Below the pieces are notes generated by a model, which was not told the DNA's origin, did not search any database, and was given only the letters and a program-made list of their open reading frames with translations. Position numbers and translations under genes: made by a program. Shown here one piece after another: positions 7,906 to 62,229 of a DNA stretch of 64,000 nt. This DNA is from Seison nebaliae (Eukaryota > Rotifera > Pararotatoria > Seisonacea > Seisonidae): the NCBI GenBank assembly GCA_023231475.1, contig JALJEE010001665.1:1-64000 (forward strand). Direction: 5' to 3'. Positions within the stretch are counted from its first letter, which is position 1. The number at the start of each line of letters is the position of its first letter.

Positions 7906-10900
7906 ATGGAAACGATCAAAGTCGCCGTACGCGTTCGTCCATTAAATGAACGTGAATGTCAATCTGATAATATTGTGTCTATGAACGACAATAATCTGAC
8001 AATAACGGAACCTTATTCGAACGTTCATTTTTTTCTCCTCATCAATCAATTCGTTATTAGTGTCTCTATTCTTCTCCATCATCCAATCTAGAATGAGATT
8101 AATAAGACGTTCTCGTATGATTACTGTTATTCGAGTTATGAACGCGGCGAACAATACGTCACACAGGAAAAAGTTCTGGACCGTATTAATTCGAATTCCA
8201 CTTAATAATTAAAAGAAGATTTATGATGATTTAGGATTTATTATCATTGATTCTGCTTTCGCTGGCATTAATTCATGTCTGATGGCATATGGTCAAACGG
8301 GAAGTGGGAAGACGTATACAATGATGGGCGATGTGACAAACGAGAAGGAATGTGGAATTATTCCTCGGATTTGTCAAGTTTCATTTTTAAAGTTTTTCCA
8401 TAAAAATTTTAAATTCCCATTCTTAATTTTGGAAGTCATTATTTACTTGTATCAATATAGGAAGGTCGATTAATAGCAAAGAATCGATTTCTAAAAAAAA
8501 GAGACAATCAATTTTATTTCATCATGATTCTGCTGAAAGTGTCACATACGATGTGACGGTGTCTTATCTCGAGATTTATATGGAAAAGGTGAGAGATCTT
8601 CTATTAACTTCTGATATGTCGACATCGTTAAATTATGGTGGGAATATGAATCCTGCGACAGCGTTACGTGTAAGGGAGCATCCATCTACCGGACCATATG
8701 TTCAAAATTTATCGCGACATAGGATAACTAATGTAGAAGAGATTATGCATTTCATTGAATTAGGTCGGTAGAGAGAAAAAAATGTTGAAAATTCAATTAA
8801 TTTGAAAATTTTTAGGAAATCGTCATAGAACGACAGCAGCAACGGGAATGAATAGTATGAGTTCGAGATCACATGCAATATTCACATTAAACTTCGTTCA
8901 AGCAACGTTACTTGAAAACGGATTACCATCAGAAATTCATTCGAAAGTAAATTTGATTGATTTGGCGGGTAGTGAACGTGCAAATTCGACGGGTACGAAA
9001 GGAGAACAATTGAAAGAAGGAGCAGCAATAAACAAATCATTGTTCTCTTTAATCAACGTCATTTCTGCTCTAGCCGATTCGAACATTCAAAGACGAGTAC
9101 ATATTCCTTATCGGGATAGTGTGTTAACATGGCTTTTAAAAGATTCTCTTGGTGGTAATGCACGAACGATTATTATAGCAAGTTGATTTTAATTTCTTAA
9201 TTTGAATTCTATTAAACTATTTTCAGCTATATCTCCTTCAAGCATGAATTATTCAGAAACACTTTCCACTTTACGATATGCAAATCGTGCAAAGAATATC
9301 GTAAATAAACCGGTAGTGAATGAAGATGAAAGTGTTCGAATTATTCGGGCACTACGTGCGGAAATTGAAGAGCTTAAAGATAAATTAGCAAATCAATCAC
9401 CTTTGGTTTCCCATCAACGCAATGTTTCGATAGCATCAATCGCTTGTCAGAACTCGGAAACTAACAGTGTCATCTCAAATCCAATGCTAAATAAATTAAG
9501 TGATAATAGTGCGAGATATAAGATATTGTGTGACAAATGGAAAGAAAAATGGACAGCATTAAATGAGAAATTAGCAGTTAATCGTTTTGGTTTTCGGTTC
9601 AGTTTAACATTGATTATTTGTTTACTATTAACAGGTGAATGATATGAATGATTTCCGAATTGTTAACGAGAAAAATAAAGGAATTTATTTCGATTCAGAA
9701 AAACCATATCTTCTATGTCTCAATGATCATAATCTCAATACAATCAATAGCGGAATGGCAATTTATCAATTGGAGAAAGGACGAACTATGATTGGATATG
9801 ATGATAGTGAACGAATGATCGATGGCGAAAAAATTCAAATGAATGATAAAAATGAGATCGATGATGGTAATAGCGATACCGATACGGATGATGATGAAAA
9901 TGTAAATTTTATTAAATTACCTAAATTAAACGATTCGTTCTTACTTAAAGAGCATTGTTGTATTATTCATATTGTGAAAGATTATCTCAATGACGTTGAT
10001 GAGGATGATAATAATAACAACAACAATTTTGAAGAAATGAGAAATAATGGTATTAATACAACAATTAATGGTCATAGTAATAAGAAGAAATTTAACAGAG
10101 AAATCACTTTAATTCCATTTCCCGATTCAGAATGTCAGATCAACTCCTCACTCATCGATATTCCCACAGTACTACATCACGGTGATATGATATTATTAGG
10201 TAGCACATTCTTATTCAAATATAACGATTACATAGAATATAAAAGTGAAGGAACGAAACGATTATCAATGAAAGATAATTCCGTTCAATTGATGACGAAA
10301 TCATTAAATGCATTACATCGATCCACTGATTCATCAATGTCAAAAATCGAATTAGATATGCGGGATGATCTTATTGAAAAGAAATCTCATTTATTAAAGG
10401 TTTTTAATTTAATAAACAATTTCTAATAAACTTTCATTTAAAGGAACAACAAGAAATTGTAATTGAATTGGAAGCGAAATATGAATCACTAAAGACAGAT
10501 AGTGAACTGACTTCAAAAAAATATGAAGATTTACTTATCGAATTATACGGGAAAATGAACGTTTGTAATCAAAATGATACGTCTGATGAGAATGAGGAAT
10601 TGAATCAACTCAATATTAAATGTGTGGCAATCCAAACAGAATTTGCATCAGTCATGGAAGAAAAAGGAATAAAATTGAATGATACATATCAACAATATAT
10701 GCAAGAAGAAAGTTTATTGAAAGTTAGATGAAATGGAATTTTAGAAAAATTTCATTGACATTATTTTACCATTTCAAGAATTTAGAGAATCAAACGTTAT
10801 TTGAATCAATGGTAGAATTTGAAGTAAATCGTCGCTTAAGAAATTCCTATTCGCAACCAAACACTACAACCTCCAATGCCTTTAAGAAACTTTTACAAAA

Positions 10901-11479
10901 AACGTTATTTTTAATTCAATTTAATTGAATACAATTCAAAAATTAATTAGAGTTGATTCAATGCAAGAATCGATGGGAAATGTGACATTGGACAAATCAG
11001 TCGATTCTTTAAATTACCATCGTGGAATTCCTCATTGTGTCTCTAATAGACCCAATGTTTTGGTTGATATAATTTCATTTTGTCACAAACGAAATCGAGG
11101 TTTCATTCCGAGAAGTTTCGTCGAATTCCAAATAGAACTTAAAACAAAGAATGATGAATGGACGATTTATCGACGATATAATCATTTCGTTTTATTACAT
11201 GAATATCTTCAAAGTTTTTTTGGCGACATGGAAATCAAAGCATATTCCCTAAGACTGCCTCCAAAATATTATAGTTTTGTCATCAATGATACGGACAGAA
11301 ATATTAGAAGAATGGGACTTCTTAGAAGATATTTGCAACATGTTGTTTATGTACTTGTGGAATCAGACAGATCACCTTTTCATCCAACAAAAGGTCTCCA
11401 AGAACTTAATAGTGTATTTTTGACACAGTTCCACATATTCTTCAATCCAAATTATACAGCTGAACAAATTGTTTTTTAA
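7906..11479 (+). CDS. KIF16B: KIF16B/Klp98A-type kinesin-3 with FHA and PX domains
   Basis: Plus-end-directed kinesin-3 motor that in other animals carries early endosomes, binding phosphoinositides through its PX domain. Ten exons fit exactly in frame: 7906-8022, 8092-8172, 8219-8391, 8465-8763, 8816-9181, 9227-9576, 9635-10399, 10444-10722, 10779-10903 and 10951-11479, giving 1027 residues. The motor shows the P-loop AYGQTGSGKTYTMMG, switch I NSMSSRSH and switch II LIDLAGSE. An FHA-like region follows (GRTMIGYDD ... LLKEHCCIIH), then a coiled stretch. The C-terminal PX domain has WTIYRRYNHFVLLHEYL and the proline-rich loop LRLPPKYY. Human KIF16B is about 1300 residues, so the stalk here is short. 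Nearly all donors are GTT. The exon 3/4 join is the least certain. Confidence 0.93.
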
Positions 11480-61800: not shown

Positions 61801-62229
61801 TTAGTCATAACCTTTCTAATTCGATTTTGATATCTTTTCTAATTTGAAGGATTACAACGATGAATGGAGAGATTTGATTCAAATGGAAAAATTTCGATTA
61901 TTCAATAATCATTGGTTGAAGGCGTTACATGATAAGCCGCAAAGTTTTGTTTCTTAACTGGATTATTCGTTAATTGTTTCGCATATTTCGAAGGAACATT
62001 GTTAGATGAAAGCAATGAATTTGATGATTGGAAGGAACGCGAAGATCTTGACTATAACAATTCTTTGTTAAATTCAGATCTAGATCGTTATTATGACAGT
62101 GATACTTCAGGTTTGGGTTTTTAATTCATGTTTTTATTCAATTCGAATCCAATTTTATTAGAAGGATTCCTTACAAACAAATATTCATTTTCTGGTTCGG
62201 AAAGTGAAGGTAATGGTTATCATTTGTGA
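58821..62229 (+). CDS. KIFAP3: KAP3, kinesin-II accessory subunit
   Basis: KAP3 is the armadillo-repeat accessory subunit of heterotrimeric kinesin-II, the anterograde intraflagellar transport motor. About a dozen exons from the ATG at 58821 join to a close match. The conserved head is ITRGGEVEVHPVEDALIVEY, followed by IEATLLDDND. Landmarks along the armadillo array are QLARNPDNLDDL, NVTYVFFCFSSFSLF, KYFLKRAFRKKDALLMKFVR, LDWEHVLQEYKLINWTV and VFYQMIYHKSTRDEV. The end reads EKFRLFNNHWL, then an acidic tail closing near SGSESEGNGYHL. Length is near 750 residues. Almost all donors are GTT (GTTTTA, GTTAGT, GTTATT, GTTGGT, GTTAAT); one is GTGAGA. Its presence implies ciliated or flagellated cells. 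Confidence 0.95.

Follow-up and report, generated by a model that had tools for sequence, protein, structure and literature searches.

The usual start of an intron, GTA or GTG, is a splicing signal common to nearly all animals, and introns of the major class in animals have a purine at +3 together with G at −1 and +5. In a 64,000-nucleotide stretch of contig C821 from Seison nebaliae (JALJEE010001665.1, positions 1 to 64,000; hereafter, the window), introns seem to begin predominantly with GTT, and the question raised by this locus is how such introns are recognized. Seison, a small epizoic marine animal, belongs to the rotifer-acanthocephalan clade, and its assembly comprises 36.0 Mb in 846 contigs. 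GTT starts about 85–90% of the introns predicted in the sample, and three genes for U1 small nuclear RNA (snRNA) carry the exact compensatory change at the base that reads intron position +3. Judged from these sequences, Seison very probably uses a re-coded 5' splice site of the major spliceosome, in which U1 and the introns have switched together at one base pair.

Introns were counted using an unsupervised gene-finding hidden Markov model written for the analysis. The training DNA, 264 kb in total and <1% of the genome, comprised the window together with 20 samples of 10 kb each taken from other contigs, while the stretches bearing U1 genes (approximately 30 kb) were kept out of training. 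In the main model, in which the donor was initially defined by GT only, the GTT donors increased from 175 of 245 introns in the first pass to 359 of 409 at the end of training, and one further round gave 360 of 409. When training was started with a strong GTRAGT prior, the GTT share moved from 60/159 to 364/420. When the GT and AG rules were both dropped, T at +3 rose from 24/71 in the first round to 337/362, and the model learned G (93%), T (97%), and T (93%) at +1, +2, and +3, respectively. As the freed acceptor was blurred and this run was still improving when stopped, the AG ends rest on the homology-anchored and GenBank-mapped introns, and all acceptor numbers given here are those of the AG-constrained model. 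Moreover, since a trained donor can reinforce itself, positions +3 to +6 were kept flat in every round of a separate run. GTT was then found in 289 of 415 introns overall, in 276 of the 387 whose removal is required for an open frame, and in 207 of the 246 frame-required introns of 40–65 nt, which form the firmest set.

In the case of positions 7906-62229, an earlier note made from the sequence alone had counted about 52 GTT starts in 58 donors, and the main model confirmed this proportion with 104 introns (94 GTT, 6 GTA, 2 GTG, and 2 GTC). GTT accounted for 100 of 111 introns in the whole window and 260 of 298 in the other 20 samples, and the share per sample ranged from 5/10 (L010) and 2/4 (L026) up to 13/13. 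One sample, L009 (C10:1-10000, GC content 0.352), had zero predicted introns in 10 kb and could be repeat, intron-poor, or foreign DNA.

The donors were also placed independently of the gene model. Two predicted proteins of Seison, from third-party GenBank models, were mapped exactly to the DNA; the MSH6 frame of the window was 100% identical to SNEBB_006452, and the KAP3 model built here was 97% identical to SNEBB_006454. Together they gave GTT at 19 of 21 donors, with 5/6 in MSH6 (the sixth being GTATCC) and 14/15 in KAP3 (the remaining donor being GTGAGA). Sliding the boundaries at the mapped junctions never produced a GTR donor together with an AG acceptor as an alternative. The KAP3 exception named in the earlier note, GTGAGA, is the same donor in the mapped protein, while the MSH6 exception given there as GTATCT is absent from the gene model. 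As a separate observation, SNEBB_006452 (window 55464; 55643-51487) seems to fuse an upstream gene onto MSH6 via the GTATCC donor.

The junctions were also compared with homologues. GTP cyclohydrolase I aligned with 1fb1 ungapped over 180 residues that span four GTT junctions. For KAP3, 9 of 15 junctions (8 GTT and 1 GTGAGA) were ungapped in all 15 homologues used, chosen among 119 listed non-Seison matches; for MSH6, 4 of 6 junctions, all GTT, were ungapped in all 10 homologues used, chosen among 79 listed. The other 8 of the 21 KAP3 and MSH6 junctions were not decisive by this measure. In total, gap-free homology in the three genes gave GTT at 16 of 17 junctions, a total that leaves out kinesin with its one GTC junction. 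For that kinesin junction, an alternative donor, GTAGAG, was seen by eye and would add one residue compared with KIF1A. The donors GTTAAT, GTTGAC, and GTTTTT of GTP cyclohydrolase I, and those in the genes that the earlier note had named HDHD5, XPA, and UBL3, were reproduced by the model. The positions in the window are as follows.

28315-28320, + strand: GTP cyclohydrolase I donor GTTAAT (model; ungapped against 1fb1)
28483-28488, + strand: GTP cyclohydrolase I donor GTTGAC (model; ungapped against 1fb1)
28619-28624, + strand: GTP cyclohydrolase I donor GTTAAT (model; ungapped against 1fb1)
28757-28762, + strand: GTP cyclohydrolase I donor GTTTTT (model; ungapped against 1fb1)
58886-58939, + strand: KAP3 intron, donor GTTTTA (SNEBB_006454 mapped; ungapped 15/15)
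59072-59120, + strand: KAP3 intron, ordinary donor GTGAGA, an exception (SNEBB_006454 mapped; ungapped 15/15)
59728-59779, + strand: KAP3 intron, donor GTTAGT (SNEBB_006454 mapped; ungapped 15/15)
59843-59892, + strand: KAP3 intron, donor GTTATT (SNEBB_006454 mapped; ungapped 15/15)
60166-60212, + strand: KAP3 intron, donor GTTGGT (SNEBB_006454 mapped; ungapped 15/15)
60392-60433, + strand: KAP3 intron, donor GTTAAT (SNEBB_006454 mapped; ungapped 15/15)
60707-60756, + strand: KAP3 intron, donor GTTTAA (SNEBB_006454 mapped; ungapped 15/15)
60893-60947, + strand: KAP3 intron, donor GTTAGA (SNEBB_006454 mapped; ungapped 15/15)
61800-61849, + strand: KAP3 intron, donor GTTAGT (SNEBB_006454 mapped; ungapped 15/15)
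54573-54620, − strand: MSH6 intron, donor GTTTAT (SNEBB_006452 mapped; ungapped 10/10)
54384-54424, − strand: MSH6 intron, donor GTTTTA (SNEBB_006452 mapped; ungapped 10/10)
54264-54308, − strand: MSH6 intron, donor GTTGTT (SNEBB_006452 mapped; ungapped 10/10; the model donor lies 3 nt later and is also GTT)
54031-54077, − strand: MSH6 intron, donor GTTTAT (SNEBB_006452 mapped; ungapped 10/10)
33504-33509, − strand: donor GTTACA in the gene named HDHD5 (model only)
39536-39541, − strand: donor GTTAGT in the gene named XPA (model only)
14301-14306, − strand: donor GTATTG, an exception, in the gene named UBL3 (model only)
8764-8769, + strand: kinesin (KIF1-like) donor GTCGGT, an exception (model; an ungapped KIF1A reading fits GTC)

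These junctions bear on the idea that the GTT starts are an artefact, with the true introns beginning elsewhere, either shifted or at GTRAGT, and GTT arising from bias in the gene model or in base composition. It is a very improbable account and is already largely refuted. The model does learn its own donor, and the GTT share does fall when the donor is held flat; however, the gap-free homology and the mapped proteins give GTT nearly throughout, and even the GTRAGT-biased start ended at GTT. As for composition, T follows a randomly taken GT dinucleotide of the same DNA in 40% of cases (23,808 sites), and intron bodies contain 45% T. Thus, composition does not yield 88% GTT.

The remainder of the donor was then described. 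A purine was present at +3 in 37 of 409 introns, so that the sample departs from the pattern of a purine at +3 with G at −1 and +5 that marks the major class in animals. The flanking bases were A (52%) at −2, A (42%) or G (24%) at −1, and G (22%) at +5. Compared with the local background, the information was 0.58 bit at +3 and 0.21 bit at +5, with approximately none at +4 and +6, and G at −1 was not associated with G at +5 (P 0.31). Beyond GTT, therefore, the donor carries little information, and G at −1 and +5 is far below the usual animal consensus. This weakness was not part of the earlier note, nor was the fourth U1 gene described below. The GT..AG ends of major-class introns were present, with G at +1 and T at +2 recovered by the unforced donor. 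The introns were short, with a median of 51 nt, and ended in YAG under the imposed AG. A U12-type or other non-major class is barely conceivable for these introns, and no supporting point was found for it. U12 donors read RTATCC, with A at +3, whereas Seison donors read GTT; the AG-constrained model gives GT..YAG ends; U1, U2, U5, and U6 are all present in the genome; and a search for U12 RNA, made without a positive control, gave no match with E ≤ 0.001.

Few RNA sequences are as conserved as the 5' end of U1, and in the standard helix of U1 with the 5' splice site, position 6, a pseudouridine in other animals, faces intron +3. An Rfam search of the whole genome (RF00003) found at least four U1 loci. 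As the best 41 of 293 candidates were scored, further copies may exist. A degenerate 5'-end pattern recovered the same four loci without mismatch; at up to three mismatches it gave 36 matches, while the reversed control gave 46. The loci are as follows, where A6 and U9 denote A at position 6 and U at position 9.

C208, about 6576-8439: U1 copies L001 and L002, approximately 1.5 kb apart with their 3' ends facing
L002, 1501-1664: U1 copy with the ordinary 5' end
Contig C647: U1 copy L003, with A6
Contig C762, L004 1501-1659: U1 copy L004, with A6 and U9

Three of the four copies start with AUACUAAC, with A in place of U at position 6, while L002 keeps AUACUUACC. The full 5' ends are AUACUAACCUGG in two copies, AUACUAACUUGG in one, and AUACUUACCUGG in one, and the first 12 bases differ only at positions 6 and 9. 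Accordingly, the conserved end AUACUUACCUG was found in L002 only; L001 and L003 depart from it by A6, and L004 by A6 and U9. Since position 6 faces intron +3, A6 pairs with U at +3. Over 409 introns, the A6 U1 forms on average 4.90 Watson-Crick pairs of 9, compared with 4.09 of 9 for the ordinary U1, but this gain of approximately one base pair per GTT intron is no independent proof because it follows from the T at +3 itself. In the untrained stretches around the U1 genes, analyzed with the flat donor, 28 of 34 introns started with GTT, so these stretches look like the same genome. Of the six non-GTT introns there, two that lie close to the U1 gene, on the L038 minus strand, are possibly false calls.

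Apart from their 5' ends, the A6 copies still appear to be U1 RNAs. All four copies scored above the gathering cut-off of 69.5 bits, with 112.9, 112.4, 108.0, and 97.4 bits. They are mutually just 61–66% identical, which is unusual for U1 copies within one animal genome. Standard pairs occupied 43/46, 42/46, 40/45, and 37/45 of the stem positions, and double changes were found in 23 of 46 stem pairs, in an alignment that was fitted to the Rfam model and is biased towards its structure. As the stems are mostly standard and carry double changes despite the divergence, the copies look selected as U1 RNAs. An AAUUU Sm-like site, presumably the U1 Sm site motif, was present in all four. Stem-loop 2 contains AUUGCAC, which we take to be the U1A-binding site, in all three A6 copies, and AGAGCAC in L002; the ordinary-ended copy may be decaying or specialized.

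These features are relevant to the possibility that the A6 genes are variant copies of minor or no activity, comparable to the variant U1 genes of humans, and that the ordinary U1 tolerates GTT with the help of proteins or U-rich intron starts of the kind bound by TIA-1-like factors. An ordinary copy is present with a good score, T is frequent downstream of the donor (53% at +8 and 59% at +9), and 8 of 45 stem pairs are non-standard in the C762 copy. Nevertheless, the fold is mostly preserved, with double changes, in three A6 copies that have diverged strongly, AUUGCAC is missing from the ordinary copy and not from the A6 copies, and an account based on proteins alone leaves the prominence of +3 unexplained. 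We therefore regard this possibility as unlikely and infer that the A6 copies would be expressed, working U1s whose pairing drives donor choice.

The other snRNAs were examined in the same genome. The earlier note had proposed altered 5' splice-site recognition, perhaps through a change in U1 or a larger contribution of U6, and had suggested looking for compensatory changes in both. The first proposal is supported by A6 in three of the four known U1 copies, which would act through this pairing in the animal, while the U6 alternative has no sequence support because the only U6 found is canonical (GAUACAGAGA; 47 of 5404 candidates scored, so one U6 is a lower bound). It is nonetheless worth weighing whether U6, and not U1, drives GTT, with U at +3 and +4 extending the pairing of the ACAGAG box and the U1 copies having merely drifted. 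U6 pairs near +3 to +6, and T is present at +4 in 41% of introns; the same U6 box, however, accompanies GTR donors in other animals, +4 is indistinguishable from the intron background (0.01 bit), and G at +5 reaches just 22%. Entamoeba histolytica lends this idea some support, as a passage of PMC6085484 suggests pairing of its GUUUGUU site with U6 instead of U1, and U1 snRNA is reported absent in a passage of PMC13292270. Still, a U6 account makes the matching A6 in three U1 genes a coincidence, and we give it little credence. Splicing without U1, as in Entamoeba, is ruled out for Seison by the four U1 loci. Composition bias, U12 introns, an absent U1, and a changed U6 or U5 were each considered, and none fit the data.

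The only U5 found was also canonical, with the loop GCCUUUUAC; one locus is a lower bound. The zinc finger of U1C was ordinary and, as we judge it, close to the human one, and the first intron of the gene, placed by eye, begins with GTT. The genome contains one match to PF05971, the METTL16 family, which also has bacterial members; the protein is a candidate ortholog. The bdelloid spliced-leader sequence gave no match at up to three mismatches.

Taken together, the U1s with A6, probably the dominant ones, would pair with U, and not with A or G, at intron +3. The fourth, ordinary-ended U1 persists and could serve the remaining GTA and GTG introns. A duplicated A6 U1 may have arisen beside the old U1, first helping introns that started with GTT, after which introns would have drifted or been selected towards GTT; this order of events is our inference. 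Such a path need not cross a lethal state because the ordinary U1 remains.

Several points weigh against this switch of U1 and introns. Its polarity, from the ordinary pair to A6 and GTT, is an assumption made from the Seison genome. Of the 36 Mb in the assembly, the sample covers 264 kb and a further 30 kb. At −1 and +5 the donor is weak, and the GTT share is only 289/415 once the donor is held flat. One of the four U1 genes has an ordinary 5' end, and its score of 112.4 bits is close to that of the best A6 copy (112.9, the others having 108.0 and 97.4). The GTA and GTG donors (30 and 7 sites, some probably false calls) showed no clear extra GTRAGT character, which would have marked a class read by the ordinary U1. 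Finally, a promoter shared by the U1 copies was not established when the motif was sought by eye.

An extension of the same scheme can be offered tentatively, namely, a code of several U1s in which the U6C9, A6C9, and A6U9 ends read donors with a purine at +3, donors with U+3 and G−1, and donors with U+3 and A−1, respectively. It would be the first natural change of the 5' splice-site alphabet by duplication and mutation of U1. U9 of the C762 copy faces −1 and would pair with exon A−1, the commonest base there (42%). When duplex energies were compared over 409 donors, the A6U9 end alone was best for 252, the A6 end for 92, and the ordinary U1 for 30, with 35 ties, although A-rich exons alone push towards A6U9 and the program may shift the register. 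A link of the A6U9 copy to A−1 was judged too weak to assert, as A reaches 42% at −1 and already makes up 36% of exons (0.04 bit).

Compared with the major U2-type spliceosome, Seison is alike in its four U1 loci above the gathering score, U1 fold, Sm-like site, and GT..AG introns; it differs in A at position 6 of three of four U1 copies, T at +3 in approximately 88% of introns, and weak G at −1 and +5. U at +3 is common to Seison and E. histolytica; however, the whole Entamoeba donor element is said to be extremely conserved and U1 is reported absent (PMC6085484, PMC13292270), whereas Seison has a changed U1 and a loose sequence from +4 to +6. In Fritillaria borealis, also an animal, splice-site sequences have likewise changed throughout the genome, 95% of introns lying outside the GT/AG rule according to a passage of PMC13326754. 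Both U1 versions of this species share the same strictly conserved 5' end, and the authors state there that a dedicated divergent U1 is not employed, while in Seison one apparently is. The +4 A/U switches of Saccharomycotina resemble Seison in a preference change at one donor position. Parker and colleagues sought compensatory U1 changes and, as described in part of PMC10581693, found ACUUACC invariant in the 227 of 230 species with U1 identified, as well as in 9 of 10 outgroups; neither U1 nor U6 showed a compensatory change, unlike in Seison, where U1 did. U1 copies with variant 5' ends beside an ordinary one occur, as in Seison, in the diplonemid S. specki (PMC12621601, in part) and among human variant U1 genes (PMC5159530, in part). 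The second U1 of S. specki has a run of C, and both of its U1s are comparably complementary to canonical donors; the passages of PMC12621601 describe no base-for-base matched shift, whereas in Seison U1 and donors changed at the same base pair. In a nucleomorph study, U1 and U6 recognition motifs are described as conserved even where donors lost their motif (PMC6461891, in part), and according to a passage of PMC10599564, a previous study was unable to establish definitively that donor variation is linked to U1 sequence. The passages on introns, splicing, and snRNA in the Seison genome paper (PMC8351084) are silent on donor sequences and snRNAs. No earlier report of the Seison case was found among the matches listed in the open-access literature, subscription papers being outside this scope; as the genome and models are public, a report may exist elsewhere.

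Seison seems to have rewritten the splicing signal that nearly all animals share. If so, nature has repeated the classic compensatory U1 mutation experiment, apparently genome-wide and with the ordinary U1 still present. Such a case would allow tests of how a signal can change when thousands of genes use it at once, and it would separate the demands of U1, U6, and U5 on the donor. Moreover, a Seison-like genome may defeat gene finders that were trained on GTRAGT.

One further feature of the window was noted.

42513-42594, + strand: tRNA gene, at 67.5 bits the only Rfam match in the window at the gathering threshold

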